Below are positions 8,332 through 31,297 of a DNA stretch of 64,000 nucleotides, one piece after another. The notes beneath the pieces are model-generated. The model worked only from the letters and a program-made list of their open reading frames with translations, did no database searches and was not told the DNA's origin. The first letter of the stretch is position 1. Each line of letters starts with the position of its first letter. Source of the DNA: Microbacterium sp. LWO14-1.2 (GTDB lineage: Bacteria > Actinomycetota > Actinomycetes > Actinomycetales > Microbacteriaceae). The DNA lies in assembly GCF_038397715.1 (NCBI RefSeq), contig NZ_CP151633.1, positions 1,674,001 through 1,738,000 on the forward strand, read 5' to 3'. A program made the translations under genes and the position numbers.

Positions 8332-8655
8332 ATGACGATCCACCCCACGGACATCGGCCCCGACGAGAACATCGAGGGGTACCTGATCGGGTCGCCCGTG
8401 AGCCTGATCCGCGAGTTCACGGCGGTGCCGGGGTCGGGGCCTCGGCTGCACCGGCATCCGTACGTCGAGACGTTCCTCGTGCACTCGGGGCGGGCGCTCT
8501 TCACGCTCGGCGACGAGCAGGTCGTGGTCGAAGGCGGGCAGGTGATCGCCGCGCCGGCGCTCGTCGCCCACCGTTTCGAGGTGCTCGACGGCGGGACGTA
8601 CAACGCGACGCACATCCACGCGAACGATCGGTTCGTCACGGAGTGGCTGGAGTAG
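8332..8655 (+). CDS. Small cupin-domain protein
   Basis: 107 aa, a single cupin barrel. The metal-site motif 1 reads GPRLHRHPYVETFLVHSGRALFTLGD (HxH and E) and motif 2 lies around GGQVIAAPALVAHRFEVL with a conserved His. Such single-domain cupins may be small enzymes or sensors; no substrate can be given. GAGGAGG (8321-8327) supports the ATG. The gene stands alone between repeat family A copy 1 and the zinc-finger gene. Confidence 0.85.
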   Translation: MTIHPTDIGPDENIEGYLIGSPVSLIREFTAVPGSGPRLHRHPYVETFLVHSGRALFTLGDEQVVVEGGQVIAAPALVAHRFEVLDGGTYNATHIHANDRFVTEWLE

Positions 8656-8728
8656 ACCGGGTGGCGGATTCTGGCGGGATGGATGCCGCGGCGGTATCCG
8701 TGTCGGTGGGGCGGCGTAGGGTGTGCGG

Positions 8729-9076
8729 ATGACCGATGCCCGTGACGCGCTCGACCGGCTGCGCGCCGACGCGCTCGCTCGGGTGGCGACCACACGGGCC
8801 ACGCTCGACCAGCTCACACACGACCGCGAGGGGTCGAACGACGACGACGAGCACGATCCGGAAGGCGTCACGCTGTCGTCAGAGTGGTCGAGACTGACCG
8901 GACTCGCCGAGGCCGCGGCATCCGAGCTCCGGCAGGTCGACGAAGCGATCGAACGACTGGATGCCGGGACGTACGGCATCTGCGCGAACTGCGGCCGCCC
9001 CATACCCGCCGGCCGACTCGAGGTGCGCCCCTTCGCCACGCACTGCGTCGCCTGCGCCGAGAAGCTCGGCGGCTGA
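8729..9076 (+). CDS. DksA/TraR-type zinc-finger protein
   Basis: 115 aa. A coiled-coil N-terminal part (LRADALARVATTRATLDQL) and an acidic stretch (NDDDEHDPEG) precede the C-terminal zinc finger: CANC, 17 residues, then CVAC. The motif GTYGICANCGRPIPAGRLEVRPFATHCVAC is strongly typical, though written here only as a pattern of four cysteines is needed. DksA-like proteins bind the RNA polymerase secondary channel; small actinobacterial forms are not well characterised. I chose ATG 8729 over the GTG two codons upstream because GTAGGG precedes it at a usable distance. Confidence 0.88.
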   Translation: MTDARDALDRLRADALARVATTRATLDQLTHDREGSNDDDEHDPEGVTLSSEWSRLTGLAEAAASELRQVDEAIERLDAGTYGICANCGRPIPAGRLEVRPFATHCVACAEKLGG

Positions 9077-9096
9077 GAGGTTCCGCGGAGGGGACC

Positions 9097-9245
9097 GCGT
9101 TTCGTCTCGCTCCGCTCGCTCAACGACCGGAAGGGGCGGGTTCCGGCCGCTCAACGACCGGAAGGGGCGGGTCCCGGCCGCTCGACGACCGGAGCGGACG
9201 AGGTCCCGGCCGCTCGACGACCGGAGCGGACGGGGTCCCGGCCGC

Positions 9246-9259
<14 letters not shown>
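9097..9259. repeat. Family B repeat: tandem 31-32 bp units ending inside a gene
   Basis: GCGTTTCGTCTCGCTCCGCT leads into about 4.5 tandem units that each start CGCTC(A/G)ACGACCGGA (9117, 9148, 9179, 9211, 9243). It fills the gap between the convergent DksA-like and dehydrogenase genes. Read on the minus strand the last unit supplies the codons GGT CGT TGA, the final Gly-Arg-stop of the dehydrogenase. A related array is at 19995-20199. Confidence 0.85.
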
Positions 9260-10331
<1,072 letters not shown>

Positions 10332-16259: not shown

Positions 16260-16547
16260 TCAGGCGTCCGGCGCGGCTGCGTCAGGCCGCCGCCCACCGA
16301 GACGCAACCCGGCGAGGAAGGCGAGGGCGACGAACCCCAGCGCCAGCAGAACGAACCCGATAGCTGTCGTGCGCGACACGAAGAAGCCGCTGCCGTCTCC
16401 CACGAACGTCGCCGAGGAGAGCGGCTGATACGCGAACCACCCGAACGAGACGGGGGTCATCAGACCGACGACCGTCGCCGCCAGTCCCGCGATCACGAGC
16501 AGGGTCGCGGCAGTCCAGGCGATCGTGGTCTTGCGTCGGCGGCTCAT
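16260..16547 (-). CDS. Small two-span membrane protein, function unknown
   Basis: 95 aa. A basic head MSRRRKTT is followed by TM1 (AATLLVIAGLAATVVGLM). An external loop of about 25 residues with aromatic residues (FGWFAYQPLSS) precedes TM2 (AIGFVLLALGFVALAFLAGL) and a basic/proline tail. This N-in, C-in hairpin shape is common among unnamed actinobacterial membrane proteins. It is divergent from a small lipoprotein gene (86 bp apart). Confidence 0.7.
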   Translation of the reverse strand: MSRRRKTTIAWTAATLLVIAGLAATVVGLMTPVSFGWFAYQPLSSATFVGDGSGFFVSRTTAIGFVLLALGFVALAFLAGLRLGGRRPDAAAPDA

Positions 16548-16632
16548 CCCCCGACGCTATCGCGGTGGCGGATTCTTCTCGACGTCAGCGATGTCGCGCC
16601 GGACATTGCCCGGGACGTGAGACGATCTGGCG

Positions 16633-17169
16633 ATGGTCATGAAGCGTGCTCTCCTGGTCGCCGGCTCCGCGGCGCTCGCGGGAGCGAGCATGATGCTCAC
16701 CGGGTGCACCGACCCTCAGCCAGTACCACCGGTGCCGACGAACGCGGCTCCGGTCCCGGTTCGCACACTTCCCGTCCGTGAGGACCCTCCGACCCCCAAT
16801 CCCCACCGAGAAGAGGAGTATCGCGCGGCTCTCTCGCAGTTCCCGTACGCATTGCCCACGGGCGCCTCGTTTCCCACAACGGTCCCTGCCTACGATTACC
16901 CGGCCAACGTGAAAGCGACCGACTCCGGCGCGGTCGTCGCATACCACTGGTGGGGCTGCTCGCTGTTGAACGCCGCGTGGGACGCCGCCTCCGAAGGCGA
17001 TGATGCCCGAGCCGCATCGCTCTTCTCGGTCCTCGAACAAGCCGTTGACGCGGATGCGCCAGGACTCAGCGCCTGGGACACCTCGATTCTGAACCTCCAG
17101 AGCGCCGAAGCGCCGAACATGGGCGAATCGGGTCTCTGCCGGCAGTGGTTCGACATCATCGACGGGTAG
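16633..17169 (+). CDS. Secreted lipoprotein of unknown function
   Basis: 178 aa. Signal peptide KRALLVAGSAALAGASMMLTGC with lipobox LTGC. A proline-rich linker follows (PVPPVPTNAAPVPVRTLPV, then DPPTPNP), typical of a spacer through the cell wall. The C-terminal 120 residues have three cysteines or tryptophan-rich parts (YHWWGCSLLNAAWDAA, GLCRQWFDIID) and no domain I recognise. The start may be ATG 16633 or ATG 16639. The two cysteines after the lipobox could form a disulfide. Confidence 0.75.
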   Translation: MVMKRALLVAGSAALAGASMMLTGCTDPQPVPPVPTNAAPVPVRTLPVREDPPTPNPHREEEYRAALSQFPYALPTGASFPTTVPAYDYPANVKATDSGAVVAYHWWGCSLLNAAWDAASEGDDARAASLFSVLEQAVDADAPGLSAWDTSILNLQSAEAPNMGESGLCRQWFDIIDG

Positions 17170-22212: not shown

Positions 22213-22240
22213 GACGAGATCCGCCAGCCCCGGGCGTCGA

Positions 22241-22900
22241 TCAGTCGAAGCTGATGATCCCGGCGCGCACCGCGCGGATCAGGACCTGAACGCGGTCGCG
22301 CACATCCCATTTCGCCATGACGTTGCTCAAATGCGACTTCACCGTCGCCTCGCTGATGCTTTGCGTGCGCGCGATCTCGGCGTTGGACAGACCGTGGGCC
22401 AGGAGCGCGACCACCGCGCTCTCGCGCGGAGTCAGGCGCTCTGTCTCGGTCAACCGCGTCACCCGTGCATCCGTCGCCGGAGACAAGGACGATACGAGCA
22501 TGGCCGCGACGGCCGGCGACAGCACCCGGAGCCCACGGTGCACATCGCGGATCGCAGCGATGATGTCGTCAGGGTCCGAGTCCTTGAGCAGATATCCGCC
22601 GGCTCCGGCCTGCAGCATCGGCACGATCGTGTCGAGCGAGCCGAAGGTCGTGAGCGCGAGCACCGCGGTCGATGGATGGTCGCTCGTGATGGCTCGCGTG
22701 GCCGAGGCGCCGTTGAGTACGGGCATCTGCGCGTCCATCATCACGACATCCGGGGCCAACCTCCGTACGAGATCGACGACTTCCGCGCCGTTCGCCGCCT
22801 GGCCGACGACCTCGATGTCGTCCGCCTCGCTGACGAACACCGTGAGCGCCCGGCGCAGCAACGACTCATCGTCCGCGATGACCACTCGGAGGCGACTCAT
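22241..22900 (-). CDS. NarL/FixJ-type (LuxR HTH) response regulator
   Basis: 219 aa. Receiver domain 1-120 with Asp10-Asp11 acidic pair, phospho-acceptor Asp56 (VVMMDAQMP) and Lys106 (LLKDSDP). The C-terminal LuxR-type HTH reads LTPRESAVVALLAHGLSNAEIARTQ then SEATVKSHLSNVM. The ATG at 22900 follows GGGAG; another ATG six codons upstream is possible. It is divergent from its likely partner histidine kinase gene at 23135, with a micro-ORF between. The placing next to the RiPP operon suggests that it controls that operon. Confidence 0.93.
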   Translation of the reverse strand: MSRLRVVIADDESLLRRALTVFVSEADDIEVVGQAANGAEVVDLVRRLAPDVVMMDAQMPVLNGASATRAITSDHPSTAVLALTTFGSLDTIVPMLQAGAGGYLLKDSDPDDIIAAIRDVHRGLRVLSPAVAAMLVSSLSPATDARVTRLTETERLTPRESAVVALLAHGLSNAEIARTQSISEATVKSHLSNVMAKWDVRDRVQVLIRAVRAGIISFD

Positions 22901-22954
22901 GCTCCCAGGATGACCCATTCCCCCAGGATAGGGACGGACCGCCGCCGCCTCCGA

Positions 22955-22966
22955 CGAAAGTGGCAG
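22955..22966 (+). promoter_or_regulatory. CGAAAGT(G/C)GCAG motif, copy in the two-component promoter region
   Basis: CGAAAGTGGCAG between the response regulator and kinase genes matches CGAAAGTCGCAG at 24353-24364, upstream of the RiPP precursors, at 11 of 12 positions. It may be a binding site of the response regulator. Confidence 0.4.
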
Positions 22967-23037
22967 GCGTCTCCGCCTTGCGAGGGAGGCAGTCGGTGGG
23001 GAAGAGAGACAGGCTGGAGGTGACGAGAGGAGAAGCC

Positions 23038-23100
23038 ATGCTCAACGCATCAGGGGGACTCTGGACCGCTCTGTGCCAGCTCTTCGGCATCTGCAACTGA
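23038..23100 (+). CDS. 20-aa peptide with two cysteines, upstream of the histidine kinase
   Basis: ATG with an excellent ribosome binding site (AGAGGAG, 23026-23032, 5-nt spacing) opens a 20-codon frame: MLNASGGLWTALCQ then LFGICN. It is hydrophobic, amphipathic, and has cysteines at 13 and 19 that could form a ring. It ends 34 bp before the kinase start. No family is recognised. It could be a signalling peptide for the kinase, a leader peptide or a small toxin. The strong ribosome binding site is the main support that it is translated. Confidence 0.5.
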   Translation: MLNASGGLWTALCQLFGICN

Positions 23101-23122
23101 AAGGTTCGCCCCAGCGCCTTTG

Positions 23123-23128
23123 CATAAT
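23123..23128 (+). promoter_or_regulatory. -10 element giving a leaderless histidine kinase transcript
   Basis: CATAAT lies 6 nt before ATG 23135 and no ribosome binding site precedes that ATG. Transcription would start at or very near the A of the start codon. Leaderless mRNAs with this geometry are frequent in actinobacteria. Confidence 0.4.
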
Positions 23129-23134
23129 GGACTG

Positions 23135-24322
23135 ATGGAGCCGAGCGCCGAGCACCCAGAGGCGGCCCTCCCGCCTCTGCGAGCGCTGGGAGCATCGATA
23201 CGCGCCGTGTCGCCGCTGACACGTCCCGAGCGGTGGGCGCTGCTCGGGGTCGTCGGAGTCGCGTTCGCCGCCCACCTCATCGTGAGCGCCGTATCGGGCA
23301 CCGACACGGCCGATGTCTTGTTCCAAGGGCTCACGACGCTCGTTTTCGCGGTGGCTGTGTGGAGCCCGCCGGTCTTCGCCGGCGTCGTGATCCTGCTCGC
23401 GGTCTCCTCCCTCGCCGTCGAGGCGCAGCAGGAGGCCATCCTCGCGCTCGCGATCGCCGCCGGGATCGTCATGCGCACGTGCAGCACGGCGATCCGTGCG
23501 CTCTACCTCGCGGGATTCGTCGGATTCGCCGTCTGGGTGCACCTCGCGTTCCCCTTGGCGGAACCAGTCTCGAGTTTCATCGCCGCCCTCATCGTCGCCG
23601 TCTGCGCGAGCATCGTCGGCGTCGTGCTGCGCGCCGTGGTGACGCGGGAGATCCGGGTGCGACGCCAGCTTCTCCGCGCCGAACAGGCCCGTGCCGAGGT
23701 CGTGCTCGAAGAGCGCCGTCGCGTCGCCGACGACCTGCACGACATCGTCGCCCATGACCTCGTCGTGATCTCGATGCACGCCCGCCTCCTCGAACGAGCC
23801 GAAGACGAGGACGAGCGTCGGCACAGCGAACGCGCCATCATCGACGCGGCCCGGCAGGCGCTGGGCGACCTGCGCCGCGTCGTGATGCTCGTGGGCGACA
23901 CCGCGAACTCAGCGGAGCCCCCGCGGGATCAGCGAGGGATCGTCGCCGCGATGTCGCTGCTGCAGGACGAGCTCCGCGGCGCCGGCTTCCGCGTCGAGAC
24001 CGACACCGAGGTCGACGACGAGGGCGACCTCGACCGGTTGACCAGCGGGGCGCTGGCCCGGATCGTCCGCGAGGCCGGTACCAACATCCTCAAGCACGCC
24101 GCCGACGAGCAGCCGGTCGCTGTCGCCCTGCGCCGCGCTCCCGGCGAGATCCGCCTGTCCATCACGAACGGCGTGCACGCCCCGTCCGCTCCGCGCGACC
24201 GTTCAGGCAGCGGCTACGGACTCATGCGTATGAGGGAGAGGGCCGAGCTGTTGAGCGGCACCGTGACGGCAGGCCCGCACGGTCGCACCTGGCGTGTGGA
24301 GGCCGTGTTCCCGGCCGAGTGA
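23135..24322 (+). CDS. NarX-type sensor histidine kinase (HisKA_3)
   Basis: 395 aa. Five or six membrane segments occupy residues 34-168 with hardly any external domain, as in kinases that sense membrane-active peptides. The dimerisation/phospho-acceptor helix has LEERRRVADDLHDIVAHDL with His202. The ATPase part has Asn317 in REAGTNILKHA and the G-box GSGYGLMRMRERAELLSG. ATG 23135 is preferred; it lacks a ribosome binding site and is probably leaderless. It pairs with the divergent response regulator. The RiPP precursors begin 145 bp downstream. Confidence 0.92.
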   Translation: MEPSAEHPEAALPPLRALGASIRAVSPLTRPERWALLGVVGVAFAAHLIVSAVSGTDTADVLFQGLTTLVFAVAVWSPPVFAGVVILLAVSSLAVEAQQEAILALAIAAGIVMRTCSTAIRALYLAGFVGFAVWVHLAFPLAEPVSSFIAALIVAVCASIVGVVLRAVVTREIRVRRQLLRAEQARAEVVLEERRRVADDLHDIVAHDLVVISMHARLLERAEDEDERRHSERAIIDAARQALGDLRRVVMLVGDTANSAEPPRDQRGIVAAMSLLQDELRGAGFRVETDTEVDDEGDLDRLTSGALARIVREAGTNILKHAADEQPVAVALRRAPGEIRLSITNGVHAPSAPRDRSGSGYGLMRMRERAELLSGTVTAGPHGRTWRVEAVFPAE

Positions 24323-24351
24323 GCCTTCCGCCGCACCAGGCAGTCTCTCCC

Positions 24352-24383
24352 CCGAAAGTCGCAGATGGCCTCCATACTTTCGG
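24352..24383. promoter_or_regulatory. Inverted repeat upstream of the RiPP operon promoter
   Basis: CCGAAAGT and ACTTTCGG, perfect 8-nt arms 16 nt apart. It ends about 20 bp before the proposed -35, the right place for an activator. The left half resembles 22955-22966, so the response regulator is the first candidate to bind it. Confidence 0.55.
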
Positions 24384-24403
24384 CGGGATTCCCCGGGATT
24401 CGG

Positions 24404-24433
24404 TTGAGTCCGCCTCGGGCACCGAATGATGCT
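24404..24433 (+). promoter_or_regulatory. Putative promoter of the RiPP operon
   Basis: TTGAGT (24404-24409), an 18-nt spacer and GATGCT (24428-24433), with the precursor ATG at 24468. The -10 is weak (3 of 6), which fits a promoter that needs an activator. Confidence 0.35.
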
Positions 24434-24467
24434 GGTCATCCGAGTGGACTGACGAAAGGTGACTCAG

Positions 24468-24710
24468 ATGACTGTGACCATGCATTCCAGGGATGCCGTG
24501 CTCTCGCGACGAGTGGGCGACGCCATCAACAAGGTCGCCTCCGGCGACATGACCCATGCGACCGTCACCCCGCCCGTGCTCGGCACGCCCGCGGCGGTCG
24601 CAGCCCCCGCCGCTGCCGTCGCGACGTGGAAGCTGGCCGCGGGCGCGGTCGGCGGCGCCGCGACCGTCGTCGGCGCGTACTTCGCCGGCCGCGCCGTGGG
24701 GTCGTGGTGA
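24468..24710 (+). CDS. Linaridin-like RiPP precursor peptide 1
   Basis: 80 aa. A leader (about 1-38) with SRRVGDAINKVASGD ends in PPVLGTP; P36-V-L-G-T-P41 fits the PxxxTP motif known at the leader/core border of linaridin precursors. If cut as in cypemycin, before the residue preceding TP, the core would be residues 39-80, 42 residues rich in Ala, Gly and Val (GAVGGAATVVGAYFAGRAVG) with Thr at 40, 53 and 66 and a C-terminal Trp. There is no Cys, in line with the absence of a LinD-type decarboxylase. GAAAGG 8 nt upstream favours ATG 24468 over GTG 24459. Its stop touches the next start. Confidence 0.72.
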   Translation: MTVTMHSRDAVLSRRVGDAINKVASGDMTHATVTPPVLGTPAAVAAPAAAVATWKLAAGAVGGAATVVGAYFAGRAVGSW

Positions 24711-24712
24711 CC

Positions 24713-24916
24713 ATGAGCGCCCTGGAGACACGGGTCGGCGACGTGCTCGCGACGTTCTCGACGGACACCGGCGCCGACGGCATCCTGGTTACGACCTTCG
24801 ACGCACCGGTCCTCGCCACGCCCGTCGCGCTCGCCGGCGCGTTCGCCGGCGGAGTGGCCTGGGGCTCCGCGATGGTCGCGGCTTTCGAAGCGGGTCGCGC
24901 GGTCCGCGGGGGCTGA
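24713..24916 (+). CDS. Linaridin-like RiPP precursor peptide 2
   Basis: 67 aa, a diverged paralogue of peptide 1. Shared features are the leader motif RVGDVL (RVGDAI in peptide 1), the border motif P32-V-L-A-T-P37, and the C-terminal FEAGRAV (FAGRAV). The predicted core, residues 35-67, is Ala/Gly-rich (ALAGAFAGGVAWGSAMVAA) with several GxxxG spacings, but has just one Thr and one Ser. ATG 24713 lies 3 nt after the stop of peptide 1; GTG 24707, overlapping that stop, is also possible. Coupled translation is likely either way. Confidence 0.7.
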   Translation: MSALETRVGDVLATFSTDTGADGILVTTFDAPVLATPVALAGAFAGGVAWGSAMVAAFEAGRAVRGG

Positions 24917-24960
24917 CCGACGAATCAGCCGGTCGACTTCACGAGGAGAGGAACAGCGTC

Positions 24961-26802
24961 ATGACCCTGCTCACCCGGGTGCGCACCGCTCTCCGACGCG
25001 CGTCGGGGTCGCGCGAGCGTGCGCTGCGGGCGAGTGAGTCGTTCGCCGCCGTGACCGCGACCCTGGCGAGCCTCGAGGCGCTGTCGACACGACGCGACAC
25101 CGCGTCCGGAGAGCTCAACGACTGGACGGTGCTCCGCCGCGGCTTCACCGCCGACGCCCCGGTGATCGCTCGGGTCCTCGATCGACTCGACGGGCCGAGG
25201 GCCGACCGCGTCTTCCACGCCGTCCGGTGCGCGCTCGGCGTGGCCGTGCTGGTGCCCGGCCGGGGGAAGGTCTTCGACGGCCTCCGCCTCGGCGCCAACG
25301 CCGGGCTCAGCGTCCTCGGCATGATCAACCAGGCCCGATCCCGGTACGGCGGCGACGGGTCCGACCAGGCCGCTCTGCAGGTGCACACCGCTGCCACGAT
25401 CGCACGCCTGGGCGGCGACGCCCGCTCGATCGACGCCGGGCTCTGGTACCTCTCGATGCAAGGAGTGCTCTCGTACGCCGTCTCCGGCTGGATCAAACTG
25501 CTCGGCCGTCCCTGGCGCGAGGGTACAGCGGTATCCGGCGTCATGCGCACGCACACCTACGGGCACGAGGGTGTGTGGCGGTTCTTCCAGTCGCGCCCGG
25601 GGCTCGAGAAGGCCGCGACCCGGGCGATGCTGCTCTTCGAGTCCTCGTACCCCGTCGTGTACATCGCCGGTCCCCTCGTGAACGCCGCCTACACGGCCGT
25701 CGCGATGGGATTCCATGTCGCGAACGGGGTCGTCATGGGGCTCGGCCGCTTCATCTGGGGGTTCGCATCGTTTCATCCGGCCATCGCCTACACGAGCGAC
25801 CGGACGACGCGCGAACGCGGCCGATCCGATATCCTCCCCGCCGTGGCGGGCGCGGCCGTCGCCGTCGGACTCGCGGCCACCGCAGTCACCGCCACGCGGC
25901 GGAGGCTCCGCGTCCTCGACGGACCGGCCTATCTCTCGCGGCTCCGCACCGGTCGAGGCAGCGAGATCGCCTACGGAGGCAAGCAGCGCGGCAACACCAC
26001 GATGGTGTTCCTCGTCAACGCGCTGTTCTCGACGCAGGACCACTTCGGGTGGATCACCGCGCACCTCGACCGCGCCGACGACATCGACTTCATCACCTAC
26101 GACCGTGCAGGCTACGGGGCCTCGCGCGAGGCGCCGGGGGATGCGTTCCGCATCGACGACGCCGTCGACGATCTGGTAGACCTGATCGAGAACCTTGCCG
26201 CCCCCGACCAGAGGGTGGTGCTCGCCGGGCACTCCTACGGCGGGGAGATCATCCGACGCGCCGCGGAGCGCCTGTCAGCCGAGCGCATCGCGGGACTCGT
26301 GTTCGTCGACGCCACCCACCCCGAGCAGTTCTCCCAGTCGACGACGCAACGCGACGGACTGCGGCTCGTGCGCGACGCCCAGGGGCAGATGGGCGCGCTC
26401 GTGCGCGCCGGTTTCGGCGCACTCCTGGATCGGCCGACCTGGGTCACCCACCTGCCGCCGCCGTTCCGCGCGAACGCGGAGCTGCAGTATCGCGACGGGC
26501 GCATGTGGCGGGCCGGTCGACGCGAGCTCCGCGCCGTCGAAGAGGAGCTCGACATCCCGCATCCGCCCGCGCCGAGCCGCATCTCGGGCGTCGAAGGACT
26601 CGTGCTCTCCGCCTCTCGGACGATGACGGATGCCGACGCCGCACGTTTCCAGCGCGACCTCGCCGTCACGTTCGGCAGCGACCAGGGCGAACCGGTGGTC
26701 GTCGCCGGCACGCACGACACCCTGCTGACGGACCCGCTCACGGCCGGAGAGGTCGCCGACCACCTGATCGGGTTCGTGCGACGCGTGGAGGCAGCGGCAT
26801 GA
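24961..26802 (+). CDS. LinH-like fusion: HTTM-type membrane domain plus alpha/beta hydrolase
   Basis: 613 aa. Residues 85-275 resemble the HTTM/gamma-carboxylase-like membrane family: LSYAVSGWIKLLGRPWREG, then LLFESSYPVVYIAGPLV and HVANGVVMGLGRFIWGF. Residues 295-315 are a further TM segment. Residues 345-610 are an alpha/beta hydrolase with GHSYGG (Ser425), Asp450 (FVDATHPEQ) and His585 (AGTHDTLL). This two-part layout matches CypH/LinH of linaridin clusters, needed there for core modification. It sits right after the precursors and its stop overlaps the next start. Possible roles are Thr dehydration, epimerisation or leader cleavage; the role is not settled by sequence. Confidence 0.78.
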   Translation: MTLLTRVRTALRRASGSRERALRASESFAAVTATLASLEALSTRRDTASGELNDWTVLRRGFTADAPVIARVLDRLDGPRADRVFHAVRCALGVAVLVPGRGKVFDGLRLGANAGLSVLGMINQARSRYGGDGSDQAALQVHTAATIARLGGDARSIDAGLWYLSMQGVLSYAVSGWIKLLGRPWREGTAVSGVMRTHTYGHEGVWRFFQSRPGLEKAATRAMLLFESSYPVVYIAGPLVNAAYTAVAMGFHVANGVVMGLGRFIWGFASFHPAIAYTSDRTTRERGRSDILPAVAGAAVAVGLAATAVTATRRRLRVLDGPAYLSRLRTGRGSEIAYGGKQRGNTTMVFLVNALFSTQDHFGWITAHLDRADDIDFITYDRAGYGASREAPGDAFRIDDAVDDLVDLIENLAAPDQRVVLAGHSYGGEIIRRAAERLSAERIAGLVFVDATHPEQFSQSTTQRDGLRLVRDAQGQMGALVRAGFGALLDRPTWVTHLPPPFRANAELQYRDGRMWRAGRRELRAVEEELDIPHPPAPSRISGVEGLVLSASRTMTDADAARFQRDLAVTFGSDQGEPVVVAGTHDTLLTDPLTAGEVADHLIGFVRRVEAAA

Positions 26803-27371
26803 GCATCGTCCGCGACGCCGCGCGTCTGCTCGGACTGGGCCTGTTCGGCACCGGCCTCGCCGTCACCGCCTTCTCGCAGATGCCGGGGAACTCGTTCGAC
26901 CGCATCCGCCGGAAGGACTTCTTCGGACTCATCCCGAACTGGAAGTTCTTCGCGCCGATCCCCGCCATCGACGACCACGAAGTCTTCCACCGTATCCGCG
27001 GCGAGGACGGCACGTGGCAGGACTGGCAGCGCACCTCCCCACCCATGCCCCGGCGTCTCGCGCACCTCGTGTGGTTCCCCGGACGACGAGCCGACAAGGG
27101 CGTGTTCGACCACGCGTCCGAACTCGCGCAACTCGCGGCGACGGCTGATCCGACCGAGCTCGTCCTCTCCTCGTCGTACCTCGTGGTCGCGGCCACGGTG
27201 CGACGGCGCGTCGGAGAACTCCGGCCCGTTCCTGCGCATCAGTTCGCGATCATCAAGCATGCGGGATCCGACGAGTCCGTGACTCCCGAGGTCGTGCTGC
27301 TGTCGCCCGCCTTCGAGTCCCACCCCGGCACCGCGATGCGCGAGGCCGTTCCGTCCAGAGCGAAGGAGTAG
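26799..27371 (+). CDS. LinL-like protein of the RiPP operon
   Basis: 190 aa. One N-terminal hydrophobic helix (LLGLGLFGTGLAVTAF, 10-25) anchors a soluble part beginning RKDFFGLIPNWKFFAPIPAIDDHEVFHRIRGEDG. The FFAP-P-DD pattern is typical of proteins that accompany HTTM-type membrane proteins. In linaridin clusters a protein of this size (CypL/LinL) accompanies CypH/LinH. The assignment rests on order and on this motif, since no catalytic motif is visible. ATG overlaps the LinH-like stop (ATGA). Confidence 0.6.
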   Translation: MSIVRDAARLLGLGLFGTGLAVTAFSQMPGNSFDRIRRKDFFGLIPNWKFFAPIPAIDDHEVFHRIRGEDGTWQDWQRTSPPMPRRLAHLVWFPGRRADKGVFDHASELAQLAATADPTELVLSSSYLVVAATVRRRVGELRPVPAHQFAIIKHAGSDESVTPEVVLLSPAFESHPGTAMREAVPSRAKE

Positions 27372-27376
27372 ATCCC

Positions 27377-27505
27377 ATGACATCTCTCATCATTCTCATC
27401 GTCGGCGGAGGCGCCTGTCTCGTCGCCGCAGCCTGGGCGGTGTGGCGGACCCCGGCGACCCGTGACTACCTCAAGCGCCTCTTCGGGGCGGACGGCGAGA
27501 GATGA
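27377..27505 (+). CDS. 42-aa single-span membrane peptide of the RiPP operon
   Basis: MTSLIILIVGGGACLV is the start of a membrane span that runs to AAAWAVW, followed by a basic tail RTPATRDYLKRLFG. GAAGGAG lies 8 nt upstream, inside the end of the previous gene. Its TGA overlaps the ATG of the methyltransferase. It has no leader motif, so I take it as a small membrane subunit or immunity peptide rather than a third precursor. Confidence 0.65.
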   Translation: MTSLIILIVGGGACLVAAAWAVWRTPATRDYLKRLFGADGER

Positions 27506-28323
27506 CGGTCCTCGCACCCGGCCGCGCGAAAGCGGTCTCGGAGGAGTACGGTACGGCGATCGCGACGATCTACGACGACATCTACGGCGAGCTGGAAGCG
27601 TCCTCGCCCGAGATCATCGCGCTGCGGAATCTCGTGCCGCCGTCGGATGTCGTACGGACGATCGTCGAGCTCGGGATCGGCACGGGGCGCGTGCTCGGTG
27701 CGCTCGGACGCGCCCTGCAAGACGAGGCGGGGCTCCGGCTCATCGGGATCGACGGGTCGCCCGAGCTCCTCGCCCGGTCGAGCACGCGGTACCCGGACCT
27801 CGATCTCCGGCTCGCCGAAGCGGATTTCAGCAGCGACGCGGTGCTCGACGTCGTGGAAGCGGGGTCGGCGGATCTCGTTCTGTGCGTCTGCGCGTCCTTC
27901 TCGATGCTCCCCGACCGCGAGAGCCAGGGCGCCACCCTCCGCAACATCGCCGCGATGCTCGCGCGCGACGGCGTGGCCGTGGTCGAGACGCACTCGCCGT
28001 CCTTCGTCCGCGAGGTGATCGGCGTCGACCCCACGGCGATGTTCATCCCCTATCCGCGTCACGAGACCGGGCTCGTCTGCTTCTCCTCGGTCGATGACGG
28101 GATCTGGCGGATGCGGCAGGTGTGGGTCGACGGGGAGGAGAGCACCACCGTGCTCGAGACGAGTCTGCTCACGCCTCCGCACACGCTCGCGGACCTGGCA
28201 GCGGCAGCGGGGCTCGAGGTCGTCGCCCTGACCGCGTCGCTCGCGGGAGCCGAGTACGTCGAAGCCTCCACGCCGATGTACGCCGTGACGCTCCGTCGAG
28301 CTGCCGCGCGGGCCGCCGCTTGA
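27502..28323 (+). CDS. SAM-dependent methyltransferase, probably the LinM/CypM-type N-methyltransferase
   Basis: 273 aa class I methyltransferase. Motif I is VELGIGTGRV (54-63), the acidic end of strand 2 is IGIDGSPELL, followed by LAEADFSS and a motif IV region LVLCVCASFSMLPD. The C-terminal TLADLAAAAGLEVVAL is typical of this fold. In linaridin clusters this enzyme dimethylates the N-terminal amine of the core. Position between the maturation genes and exporter supports that role. Both ends overlap neighbours (ATGA, TTGA). Confidence 0.8.
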   Translation: MTVLAPGRAKAVSEEYGTAIATIYDDIYGELEASSPEIIALRNLVPPSDVVRTIVELGIGTGRVLGALGRALQDEAGLRLIGIDGSPELLARSSTRYPDLDLRLAEADFSSDAVLDVVEAGSADLVLCVCASFSMLPDRESQGATLRNIAAMLARDGVAVVETHSPSFVREVIGVDPTAMFIPYPRHETGLVCFSSVDDGIWRMRQVWVDGEESTTVLETSLLTPPHTLADLAAAAGLEVVALTASLAGAEYVEASTPMYAVTLRRAAARAAA

Positions 28324-29228
28324 CGACCCTCGAACTCGTCGCCGTCGAGAAGAGCTACGGGTCGACTCGTGCGCTCGCGGACTATTCGCTGCAGGTCCCC
28401 GCGGGGCGGGTCACCGCATTCGTCGGCGCGAACGGCGCAGGAAAGTCCACCGCGATGCGGCTGCTCGGAGGCCTGCGCACCCCCGACCGCGGTGACGTGC
28501 TGCTCTCCGGGCGCGCGCTGGACACCGGGGACCGCGGTCGCATCGGGCACATGCCCGAGGAGCGCGGGCTGTATCCCGACGAACCGCTGCGCACGCAGCT
28601 CCACTACTTCGCGACCCTGATCGGCATACCGTCGCGCCGCACGCGCTCGCACGTCGAGGAGATCCTCGAACGGATCGGCGTCGCGGAGATCGCCGACCGC
28701 GCCTTCGGCGCGCTCAGCCTGGGCAACCGACAGCGGGCGCAGCTCGCGCTCGCCGTGCTCGGATCCCCCGATTTCCTGCTCCTCGACGAGCCTTTCTCCG
28801 GCCTGGACGTCGAGGGGCTGCGTCAGGTGTCGGACCTCGTCCGGAGCCTGGCGTCCGACGGGGTGGGGATCCTCGTGTCTAGCCATCAGCTGGAGGTCGT
28901 CGCAGCGATCTCCGAGCGCGTCGCCGTGATCTCCGACGGTCGGGCCGTGGTTGAAGGCGAACTCAGTGACGTCCTGAGCGCCACCGCGCGCGTCCTGCGA
29001 CTCATGTTCCGTCATGAGGGACTGTCCACCGCCGATGTGCAGGCCTTCGTCGCACGCAGCGGAGGGCGCCCCCGGCGGCGCGCCGGAGCCCTGATCGTCG
29101 AGGTGGCCCTCCCCGCCGGCCACGACATCGACGGCGACCTGGTGGCCGCTGCGGCCGCCGCCGGGCCCCTTGCTTCGGTCGAGGTCGTGCAGCCCTCGCT
29201 CCGCGACATCCTGGAGGCGGACCGATGA
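28320..29228 (+). CDS. ABC exporter ATPase of the RiPP operon
   Basis: 302 aa. Walker A GANGAGKST (36-44), signature LSLGNRQRAQLA (LSLGN in place of LSGGQ), Walker B FLLLDEPFSGLD and H-loop SSHQLEV. The C-terminal extension resembles that of ABC-2 type export ATPases (CcmA/NatA). The start is TTG 28320, whose last bases form the stop of the methyltransferase. Together with the permease that follows it should export the mature peptides and may give self-protection. Confidence 0.9.
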   Translation: MTTLELVAVEKSYGSTRALADYSLQVPAGRVTAFVGANGAGKSTAMRLLGGLRTPDRGDVLLSGRALDTGDRGRIGHMPEERGLYPDEPLRTQLHYFATLIGIPSRRTRSHVEEILERIGVAEIADRAFGALSLGNRQRAQLALAVLGSPDFLLLDEPFSGLDVEGLRQVSDLVRSLASDGVGILVSSHQLEVVAAISERVAVISDGRAVVEGELSDVLSATARVLRLMFRHEGLSTADVQAFVARSGGRPRRRAGALIVEVALPAGHDIDGDLVAAAAAAGPLASVEVVQPSLRDILEADR

Positions 29229-30397
29229 GCGGCGCGAGCCCGCGCCGCGCGTTCGCGACGGTGTTCTTCCGGGATCTGCGCCGACAGCTCCTGACCGCCG
29301 CCCAGCTCACGCTCTTCGCCCTGATGCTCGTGGTCGTCGTACTCGTCGTGATCGCCCCGAAAATCGTCGGCTCGGGCGGGCCCTCCGCGCCGACTGTGCA
29401 TGTCTCGGCACCGGACGACGTCGTCGCCGCCGTCGAAGGGTTGCAGCCGTCCTGGACGGTCACGGCGGCGGAGACGGCACCGGACGACCTCGGCGACGGG
29501 TTCTTCGTCGCGGTGGACGACGGTGAGGTCACTGTGACCACGGCCAAGGCGTCTCAGGCCGCTTCCGCGCTGCTCGTCGGTGAGGCGGTGTCGACGGCCG
29601 TGCTCGCCGTCTCGGCCGGAACCCCTCCGCCGTCGATATCGCATGCGTTCGCCGTCGACGACGGGGAGGCCGTGCTCTCGCGCATCATCACGCTCGTGGC
29701 GACTCTCCTGACGTTCTCGATCCTCACGGGCCGCGCCGCCTGGACCTTCGGCGCCCTCGGCCGCGACCTCACCCTGGGCCTGTTCGACGGTGTGCTCGCC
29801 CGTTCCTCGGCGGTGGGCCTGCTGGGCGGTCGTGCCCTCGCCGCGGTCACCGCGGGCGTCGTGCAGATGCTCGTCCTCGCCGCCGTCGCAGCCCTCACGC
29901 TCGTCGTCGCCGGCGAGTCGGACACGGCCACGCGCGTCCTCGTGCTCGCGGCGCCACTCGCCCTGTGGACCGCCGCTGGCATCGCTTTGCTCGTCACCGC
30001 ATCCATGGTGCTGGTGCTGCTTTTCCGCGGCGGGGGCACCGCCGCGCTCGGCATCGTGATCCAGCTGGTCGGGTTCGGTGCGTTCGGCGTCCTCATCGTC
30101 GCGCTGCTCGATCCGAGCGCGACATGGATCGCAGTCGCCAGTGTCATCCCTCCCGTCTCGGTGGTGCTGCTCCCCGTGCGTCTGGCGGAAGGCGCAGCGA
30201 CGGGAGTCGACGCAGTGATCGCCGTCGGCGCGATCGTCGGCGCGGTCCTGTCGCTGTTCATCCTCGCCCTGCGCGCCTGGCGGGCGGCGACGACCACCGA
30301 TTCCGGACGGGCGACATGGCGTGCGATCTTCCGCACGGACGGGATGCGGCGGCCGAGCGCCCGCGCGACGACCCGGCGGCGACAGGCTCCCGGCTGA
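29225..30397 (+). CDS. ABC-2 type permease of the RiPP operon (NatB-like)
   Basis: 390 aa. A first TM segment (TAAQLTLFALMLVVVVLVVIAP) is followed by an external domain of about 100 residues, then five or six TM segments from residue 155 to 360. This is the layout of NatB/ABC-2 exporters. The tail is basic (RRPSARATTRRRQ). ATG overlaps the ATPase stop (ATGA), so it closes an operon of eight genes running from 24468. Confidence 0.88.
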   Translation: MSGASPRRAFATVFFRDLRRQLLTAAQLTLFALMLVVVVLVVIAPKIVGSGGPSAPTVHVSAPDDVVAAVEGLQPSWTVTAAETAPDDLGDGFFVAVDDGEVTVTTAKASQAASALLVGEAVSTAVLAVSAGTPPPSISHAFAVDDGEAVLSRIITLVATLLTFSILTGRAAWTFGALGRDLTLGLFDGVLARSSAVGLLGGRALAAVTAGVVQMLVLAAVAALTLVVAGESDTATRVLVLAAPLALWTAAGIALLVTASMVLVLLFRGGGTAALGIVIQLVGFGAFGVLIVALLDPSATWIAVASVIPPVSVVLLPVRLAEGAATGVDAVIAVGAIVGAVLSLFILALRAWRAATTTDSGRATWRAIFRTDGMRRPSARATTRRRQAPG

Positions 30398-30460
30398 ACA
30401 CGTGCCTCAGCGGGAATCCGCGGTACTCCGGAACGCGACCGGAAGTAGGCTGAGGGCATC

Positions 30461-31297
30461 ATGGACGAGTTCATCCGCGGTTTCTGGGCCTTCGCCGGCA
30501 ACTACTGGTGGCTCATCTTCCCCGTCATGGGCATGGCCGGCGGCGCCGCGAAGGCCTGGGAGCGCAGCGCGAAGCGCCGGCATGAGCGACGTCTGGAGAC
30601 GCTGCGGGTCAAAGCCGAGCTGAAGGCGGCCCAGCTCGAAGCCCGCGGCGCAAAGCGGATCGGACCGTCGGTCGTCGACACCACGGCGCCACCGGTCGCA
30701 TCGAACACCCTTCTCGAGCGGCTCTTCTCCGAGCATGACGAGATCACCGCGCGATGGCTCGACTACGAGCTCGACGTCGCGAAACTCATCGCCTTCCCCG
30801 CGATGAGCGACGGCCGCCAGCCTCTCGTCGCCGCGTTCCTGCGGGCGAAGCGGACGGCTGACGCACTGCGACCGGCATCCGCCGACGCCTCGGTGACCGA
30901 GCAGCAGGTGTCGGAGTACCTCGATGCGGTCGGCGCGTACGCCGTGGCGTTCGAGGTGGCCGAGAAGGATGCCAGACGGCTGCGCGACTCGACGTTCACC
31001 GAGCCGGAGCGCAAGCGCCTCGACCGTGCGCAGCAGCTGCTCAAGGTCGCGGTCGACGAGTCGGCGACGCAGGCCGAGCGGAACATCGCCTACAAGAGGG
31101 TGCGCGACGAGCTCGACGGTCTGATCCTGCTCAGCGACGAGGCCGTGCAGGTGCTCGAGAAGCAGGTCGCGAGAGAGCTCCCCGCGCAGCCGGCCGCGGC
31201 CGCGGCCGCGGCTCCGCAGACCCCGGAAGCATCGGCGCCACCCGAAGGGACGCCCGAGCCGGAGCGGATGCCGCTGCGCCGCGACGACGCCTCATGA
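30461..31297 (+). CDS. Membrane-anchored coiled-coil protein, function unknown
   Basis: 278 aa. One N-terminal span (YWWLIFPVMGMAGGAAKAW) is followed by a basic, helical region (RRHERRLETLRVKAELKAAQLEA). A helical middle part of about 150 residues comes next, with acidic/basic heptads (FTEPERKRLDRAQQLLKVAVDESA). The tail is Ala/Pro-rich (AQPAAAAAAAPQTPEA). I recognise no named family. It is followed by the SMP-30 gene with an ATGA overlap. It lies 63 bp after the RiPP permease and has no sign of taking part in that cluster. Confidence 0.75.
   Translation: MDEFIRGFWAFAGNYWWLIFPVMGMAGGAAKAWERSAKRRHERRLETLRVKAELKAAQLEARGAKRIGPSVVDTTAPPVASNTLLERLFSEHDEITARWLDYELDVAKLIAFPAMSDGRQPLVAAFLRAKRTADALRPASADASVTEQQVSEYLDAVGAYAVAFEVAEKDARRLRDSTFTEPERKRLDRAQQLLKVAVDESATQAERNIAYKRVRDELDGLILLSDEAVQVLEKQVARELPAQPAAAAAAAPQTPEASAPPEGTPEPERMPLRRDDAS

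Follow-up and report, generated by a model that had tools for sequence, protein, structure and literature searches.

The genome of Microbacterium sp. LWO14-1.2 is a single contig of 3.78 Mb, and 64,000 nucleotides of it (NZ_CP151633.1, positions 1,674,001 to 1,738,000 of the forward strand), referred to here as the window, carry an accessory locus that, judging by its genes, probably produces two matched small antibacterial peptides, rich in Ala, Gly and Val, by means of linaridin-family membrane enzymes. An operon at 24468-30397 encodes two precursors with a PxxxTP motif, LinH, LinL, a 42-amino-acid (42-aa) membrane peptide, a methyltransferase and the ATPase and permease of an ATP-binding cassette (ABC) transporter, and it lies beside a histidine kinase and a response regulator:

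22241..22918, minus strand: response regulator of the NarL/LuxR type, divergent from the kinase (Pfam Response_reg 3.9e-24, GerE 1.4e-16; orthologues in the same place in the related loci L013 and L023)
23120..24322, plus strand: histidine kinase, HisKA_3 (Pfam HisKA_3 2.7e-10)
24468..24710, plus strand: PRE1, alpha precursor of 80 aa with PVLGTP; predicted core GTP...GSW, 42 aa (orthologues in L013 and L023)
24713..24916, plus strand: PRE2, beta precursor of 67 aa with PVLATP; predicted core ATP...RGG, 33 aa (orthologues in L013 and L023)
24961..26802, plus strand: LinH, 613 aa, a fusion of an HTTM-type membrane domain (N-terminal) with an alpha/beta hydrolase (alpha/beta hydrolase 2.3e-14)
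26799..27371, plus strand: LinL, 190 aa, an N-terminal helix and a soluble domain with the motif IPNWKFFAPxP; a distant DUF5819 relative with homology to a protein of Streptomyces sp. CT34
27377..27505, plus strand: 42-aa single-helix membrane peptide with a strongly hydrophobic stretch, kept in L013 and L023; candidate immunity peptide
27502..28323, plus strand: S-adenosylmethionine-dependent methyltransferase, candidate alpha-N-methyltransferase (LinM) (Pfam Methyltransf_25 1.1e-9)
28320..29228, plus strand: ABC transporter ATPase for export or immunity, whose TTG start overlaps the methyltransferase stop (Pfam ABC_tran 7.4e-26)
29225..30397, plus strand: ABC-2 type permease (weak ABC2_membrane_3, 0.015; orthologues in L013 and L023)

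Every gene named in the original prediction, which had been made from the letters of the window, was found in the sequence, as were the overlapping stop and start codons by which it had most of them joined, four in number (at 26799, 27502, 28320 and 29225); the gap between PRE1 and PRE2 is 2 bases. The kinase and regulator that it had placed before the operon do form a linked two-component system, but the regulator lies on the minus strand, divergent from the kinase rather than simply upstream in the operon. The complete gene set, from regulator to permease, recurs in identical order in L013, from the same genus, and in L023, from Microbacterium sp. RURRCA19A. Both precursors are under selection: across the three pairwise comparisons of these loci, the ratio of nonsynonymous to synonymous substitution rates (dN/dS) is 0.15-0.34 for PRE1 and 0.25-0.35 for PRE2, values on which, together with synteny, we reject chance small reading frames. 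For the 42-aa peptide the values are less clean (0.22, 0.30 and 1.32), the gene being too short for firm ones; a further homologue of it lies in L013 at 16508-16633, about 7 kb downstream of the first. At the gathering threshold, Rfam gave 0 matches across the window.

The kinship of LinH and LinL with linaridin enzymes, on which the original prediction turned, is borne out by homology. LinL matches protein P0052 of Streptomyces sp. CT34 (E 2e-14, 27% identity; hhalign of an eight-member profile 97.4%), which was compared as a protein only. Streptomyces sp. CT34 has been described as a producer of a linaridin-class ribosomally synthesised and post-translationally modified peptide (PMC4319589), and its genes are identified with those of legonaridin in the excerpted text of PMC9927463. 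Relatives of the enzymes were collected as 36 loci, and the counts leave out two of these, L022 for want of a hit and L078 for the weakness of its hits; E-values of rows belonging to A2, A3 or A4 are strong by construction. As a query, window LinL matches L014 (9.4e-19), L015 (1.3e-11), L020 (3e-11) and L021 (9.9e-11), and window LinH matches the same four loci at 2e-26 to 3e-30 (L015 4.1e-29, L021 2.2e-29), aligning over its full length with the L015 and L021 relatives at 24% identity. The L020 precursor passes the NCBIfam linaridin model (3.5e-32) and a tree built from 37 LinL rows groups the L020 LinL with P0052 (support 100/97), while the precursors of L021 (1.5e-28) and L014 (8.7e-26) pass the NCBIfam cypemycin model.

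Within that tree, which contained no corynaridin LinL, types A and B fall on one side of a 100/99 branch and window LinL on the other. Its basal branching is poorly supported, and four changes are needed to account for the label "pair" (which it also gives to L065 and L067, although neither counts as a pair by motif), so we claim no single origin for all alpha/beta clusters. The closest named relatives of window LinL are from Microbacterium. DUF5819 is matched by 18 of 25 aligned LinL members (best 2.1e-6), window LinL reaching only 0.13, and the SdpA family is not listed for any of the LinL members scanned. A predicted model of LinL has a mean confidence (pLDDT) of 84.4, and a sequence comparison of LinL with the PDB gave no match.

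The precursors follow a pattern of their own. No NCBIfam linaridin precursor model (NF033402, NF033403, NF033752) lists either of them at E <= 10, in a search whose HMMER filters drop most matches above about 0.1, and the expectation of linaridin precursors is to this extent disappointed; among relatives, traces of a linaridin model appear in the alpha precursors of S. radicis (0.0074) and S. katrae (0.0051), both under the cut-off. LinH, LinL and PxxxTP are shared with linaridins, but the precursor models and the placement within type A or B failed, and for this reason we file the cluster beside, not inside, the described types. The linaridin-like cluster first proposed is supported in part: the enzyme similarity, the lack of a LinD-like gene among the ten genes scanned and the linked two-component system bear it out, and the unlisted precursors, the position of LinL and the scarcity of Thr depart from it. 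The predicted cores are rich in Ala, Gly and Val, with Thr and Ser after the TP amounting to 3 of 39 residues in PRE1 and 1 of 30 in PRE2. As the whole PRE1 core would hold only 3 Thr and 1 Ser, and the PRE2 core 1 Thr (in xTP) and 1 Ser, the mass signature of -18 Da per Thr proposed earlier would be a small effect.

A feature absent from the original prediction is the conserved pairing of the two peptides, an alpha type with GAYxxG near its end and no Glu, and a beta type marked by A[FY]EAG. Of 35 loci, 11 carry both alpha and beta (the window, L013, L023, L024, L025, L027, L028, L063, L064, L066 and L068), loci from Microbacterium and Streptomyces being included; the alpha motif reads QVLATP in L025 and L027, which are near-duplicates of each other. 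L065 has one alpha-like core missing the alpha motif, and both it and L067, whose cores are pair-like and without the alpha/beta motifs, were not counted as pairs. Residues after the TP that are Thr or Ser number 28 of 357 in 11 alpha cores (a set that holds L065 and L067 and omits L025 and L027), 11 of 354 in 12 beta cores (L067 included) and 10 of 57 in 3 cores of the cypemycin type; Thr-poverty varies in degree and is most pronounced in beta. Elsewhere, several precursors of one cluster share a core tail (L026 1852-3153, GSKQPS/N; L070 10336-10967, THPTLPHA; L068 5031-5703, EPxI), as if it were a recognition element or a removable part, and in L017 (10717-11140) two PxxxTP precursors lie divergently on the strand opposite LinH/LinL.

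The same observations bear on a rival account, an ordinary type B-like linaridin with two precursors, in which LinH and LinL would dehydrate every Thr and Ser, LinM would dimethylate, the ABC pair would export and few Thr would merely mean few sites. LinL homology to the legonaridin producer and the match of the window methyltransferase to that of the legonaridin-type locus L020 (8e-21) argue for it, as does corynaridin, which is dehydrated with neither a methyltransferase nor a decarboxylase gene in its excerpted description (PMC9927463). It sits poorly with precursors that no linaridin model lists, with a LinL outside the branch of types A and B, with a predicted beta core of one Thr and one Ser, and with the lack of a short-chain dehydrogenase/reductase (SDR) gene among the ten genes scanned. 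We consider this account unlikely, if far from negligible.

The model of LinH has a pLDDT of 84.9, and its hydrolase half carries GHSYGG with Ser425, plus His585, the Ser and His being invariant in 12 aligned LinH. The HTTM assignment of the membrane half comes from relatives (L031 5.8e-6, L029 9.5e-6, L074 7.9e-5, all under the Pfam cut-off); of the other seven HTTM-type relatives scanned, three match LMF1 weakly and four match nothing. Searched against PDB sequences, the HTTM part gave 9 matches, the best at E 0.51, with the carboxylase GGCX not among them; its SGxxK motif may be related to GGCX. An HTTM-type gene adjoins the strong LinL or sits one gene away in 34 of 34 loci, 27 of which also have a hydrolase domain. 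Of the 27 loci with the hydrolase, 25 yielded PxxxTP precursors (the exceptions being L019 and L071), against none of the 7 that lack it (Fisher p 6.7e-6, over rows that are related), in a precursor search that filtered out Arg/Pro-rich cores. This co-occurrence suggests that the hydrolase half handles the PxxxTP leader. The seven loci with HTTM and LinL, no hydrolase domain and no PxxxTP precursor found (L016, L018, L072, L074, L075, L076 and L077) may belong to another peptide system. L074 also encodes, at 8627-9721 and about 1.7 kb from its HTTM/LinL pair, a CxxxCxxC protein resembling a radical SAM enzyme, and on the Streptomyces katrae contig (L024 6083-7953) LinH lies in two overlapping frames, broken or through a sequencing slip.

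Most of the Ala/Gly-rich cores contain GxxxG motifs, which would suit a two-peptide bacteriocin like those of class IIb, built of GxxxG helices and left unmodified; LinH and LinL would then be SdpB-like helpers of maturation or export that leave the residues unchanged. The HTTM protein of L020 does match SdpB weakly (TIGR04033, E 0.0032), and the seven hydrolase-less loci would also suit such a role. The leaders with PxxxTP and the methyltransferase, kept in the operon in 3 of 3 genomes (window, L013 and L023), count against it, and so do the modified residues of corynaridin and cypemycin, products of the PxxxTP type, as given in the excerpted sources. We judge it improbable.

The window methyltransferase also matches the daptide methyltransferase model, weakly and far under its cut-off. 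The stated absence of the LinD decarboxylase agrees with the scan: none of the ten genes, the only part of the genome searched for LinD, resembles this flavoprotein decarboxylase, and the same ten genes include no lyase or peptide kinase. Nor was a gene with Lant_dehydr_N or DUF4135 found genome-wide; PF04738 was matched by 4 of the 119 genus genomes, in 2 of them above the cut-off. As for LinH and LinL, published statements conflict and, in the sources consulted, their role is unsettled. For grisemycin, grmL is described as indispensable and as potentially encoding a novel peptide epimerase, several D-residues being reported in the type A linaridins grisemycin, salinipeptins and cypemycin (PMC10373908), whereas kinases and lyases are given as involved in the formation of cypemycin and others (PMC10880069). 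The six-gene cluster of corynaridin holds homologues of the HTTM, hydrolase and LinL proteins and, in the excerpted description, neither a kinase nor a lyase; crdG, crdE and crdL are the genes under suspicion there (PMC9927463). By count, dehydration is unlikely to be the main modification of the beta peptide, with one Thr and one Ser in its predicted core, which leads us to favour epimerisation with moderate confidence, dehydration of the Thr of xTP being possible.

Control of the operon may lie with the neighbouring two-component system, whose kinase finds its best match among 118 other genomes of the genus in G054 (50% identity), a genome that has the operon, followed by G113 (43%) and G102 (42%). 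Three further features accompany it:

22955..22966, plus strand: CGAAAGTGGCAG, a candidate binding box for the regulator in the gap that separates regulator and kinase; the identical 12-mer stands at the corresponding place in L023 and is missing from L013
23038..23100, plus strand: mini-gene of 20 aa, MLNASGGLWTALCQLFGICN, candidate kinase signal peptide; homologues at L013 4752-4811 and L023 4239-4298 and near the related kinases of L094-L099
24352..24383, no strand assigned: inverted repeat CCGAAAGT-16-ACTTTCGG, with a second box inside it (24353-24364), candidate operon operator, kept in L013 and L023

The box, CGAAAGTSGCAG, has two matches in the 64 kb, one in each promoter region, with 0.75 expected; since 17 of 100 shuffles also reach two, the count alone is not evidence. 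The exact 12-mer occurs nowhere in L013, and in L023 it occurs only between regulator and kinase, not at the operon repeat. The inverted repeat, whose first base is the position 24352 at which the original prediction had begun the cluster, stands upstream of PRE1 in 3 of 3 loci with spacers of 16, 15 and 14 and with paired changes in L023; as an alternative to an operator, it may form an RNA hairpin.

The mini-gene belongs to a family of 18-24 codons with a W[TS]xLC motif and a second Cys near the end; its pairwise dN/dS values (0.31, 0.73 and 0.19) are less clean, as it is too short for firm ones. A DNA pattern for it (<=3 mismatches) matched 9 of 295 genus genomes and the reversed control pattern matched 3. 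It was confirmed in seven of these matches (G000, G054, G102, G059, G009, G055 and G197), G113 was added by eye, and G278 and G106 were rejected on inspection of their loci, which, counting L023, gives 9 loci. The mini-gene lies upstream of the kinase in 5 of the 9 and, in L096-L099, in another frame inside the 5' part of the kinase call, these calls being crude and probably overlong; a related regulator was called in all but L098. LinH and LinL were not seen, within the stretch fetched, in 6 of the 9 loci (L094-L099), which makes the mini-gene a companion of the kinase family and not of the linaridin genes. That its peptide acts as a signal is a guess.

Regulator, kinase and operon together form an accessory block:

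22213..30493, no strand assigned: block absent from the same site in the relative G005, where the flanks align at 78.8-81.9% identity

Between these flanks G005 has 3.2 kb in which neither blastn nor phmmer found anything matching the cluster. In G054, the cluster lies at about 2.0 Mb and the gene most similar to the downstream flank gene (62%) at 74 kb, which fits a unit whose regulator, kinase and operon stay together at different places. The LinL query A1 matches 5 of 295 same-genus genomes, and the alpha/beta operon is present only in G000 and G054, the other three matches being cypemycin types (L014, L015) and a locus without the hydrolase (L016). In the class-level set, query A2 matches 63 of 394 genomes at E <= 1e-3, strongly (E <= 2e-29) in 17 genomes at 19 places; the matches in the other 46 genomes, weak and mostly short, were rejected as LinL. 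Cypemycin-type precursors accompany LinH/LinL in two same-genus genomes (L014 10281-10454, minus strand; L015 6139-6303, plus strand). The description of the genus as one in which linaridin clusters are little described has to be revised in view of these precursors and of a cluster reported in Microbacterium azadirachtae, as excerpted from PMC7438953.

A two-component system and a conserved mini-peptide beside the operon would also suit peptides that serve as signals or as cell-surface factors of the producer, not as antibacterials. However, the patchy spread (2 of 295 same-genus genomes) and the accessory block fit a bacteriocin better, and corynaridin, whose cluster proteins are homologous, is active against Corynebacterium according to its excerpted description (PMC9927463). 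We regard such a function as very improbable.

The reading that we prefer, at somewhat better than even chances, is a two-peptide linaridin-like bacteriocin in which LinH and LinL mainly change stereochemistry and the methyltransferase dimethylates the N-terminus. From the gene content we infer the following course. The alpha and beta precursors, each bearing a leader, would be made together, and LinH, through its HTTM domain, and LinL would work on the cores at the membrane. They would mainly convert Ala, Val and Leu to D-residues and would dehydrate no more than the few Thr/Ser, above all the Thr of xTP. Cleavage of the leader would fall within PVLxTP, at a point between PVL and xTP that we assume from cypemycin, possibly through the alpha/beta hydrolase half of LinH, and the methyltransferase would dimethylate the new N-terminus. 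The ABC pair would export the peptides or protect the cell, the 42-aa peptide may confer immunity, and the kinase and regulator would activate the operon via the GAAAGTSGCAG box, a step that the 20-aa product of the mini-gene between them may trigger. In its most specific form, namely two-component linear antibiotics made by mass-neutral D-conversion of Ala, Val and Leu through an HTTM/LinL enzyme that is distant kin of SdpB and DUF5819, and controlled by a leaderless peptide, some 20 aa long, from a gene next to the kinase, the proposal is tentative and unlikely to hold in every part.

Several findings weigh against the preferred reading. Neither the pair nor Thr-poverty is universal or sharp, and both blur outside the 11 pair loci: eight loci have a single precursor (L014, L015, L020, L021, L030, L031, L032 and L073), others have 2 (L017, L029, L067), 3 (L069, L070) or 5 (L026), and Thr and Ser make up 65 of 612 residues in 20 other cores, nearer alpha than the cypemycin type. 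Window LinH itself did not reach the HTTM model, as 2 of 12 full LinH did (best 4.5e-4), and the titles among the 50 of 1319 matches listed by its fold search are alpha/beta-hydrolase-type proteins; the fold search of LinL against the PDB gave nothing at E <= 0.001. The genome-wide absence of DUF4135 (PF13575) is weak evidence, as this model matched no control. In the main species of corynaridin all 8 Thr/Ser are dehydrated, alongside some less dehydrated variants, according to the excerpt of PMC9927463, so LinH/LinL homologues can accompany dehydration and the xTP Thr may be a substrate.

If the preferred reading is true, the conserved alpha/beta pair represents a two-component product with linaridin-type enzymes. 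Its Thr/Ser-poor substrates would separate the action of LinH/LinL from dehydration, so that the change in the core would be directly readable, and a mass-neutral change would be overlooked by ordinary mass-based mining. The maturation of the SDP toxin is, to our knowledge, unexplained, and the kinship of the membrane domain to HTTM/SdpB would offer a route to it.

Set against known systems, the cluster is probably a variant beside the described linaridin types, and an earlier printed account of paired Thr-poor precursors is possible. With type B linaridins (legonaridin, CT34) it shares the LinL homologue, through L020 a related methyltransferase and a PxxxTP precursor, and the lack of a C-terminal Cys; it differs in its two Thr-poor precursors unlisted by linaridin models, its ABC-2 ATPase/permease pair, its LinL outside the type A and B branch and, among the ten genes scanned, the lack of the SDR gene given as a feature of type B clusters in the excerpt of PMC9927463. 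Like type A linaridins (cypemycin, grisemycin, salinipeptins), it has the LinH fusion, LinL and PxxxTP, with such precursors in L014, L015 and L021; unlike them, it has two peptides, no LinD among the ten genes scanned, no C-terminal Cys (its cores end in W and G) and longer predicted cores (42 and 33 residues, compared with 22). Corynaridin (Corynebacterium lactis), compared by description, likewise has LinL, HTTM and hydrolase homologues, PxxxTP and no decarboxylase, but one Thr-rich precursor, separate HTTM and hydrolase genes, an SDR gene and no methyltransferase (PMC9927463). The SDP system of Bacillus subtilis (SdpA/SdpB/SdpC) resembles the cluster in an HTTM protein beside a LinL/DUF5819 protein and in the weak SdpB match of the L020 HTTM protein, and departs from it in that no SdpA family is listed for LinL members. 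We know of no PxxxTP precursor in the SDP system. Class IIb two-peptide bacteriocins comprise two small Gly/Ala-rich GxxxG peptides encoded together, as in the window, from which they differ in leader type, methyltransferase and LinH/LinL.

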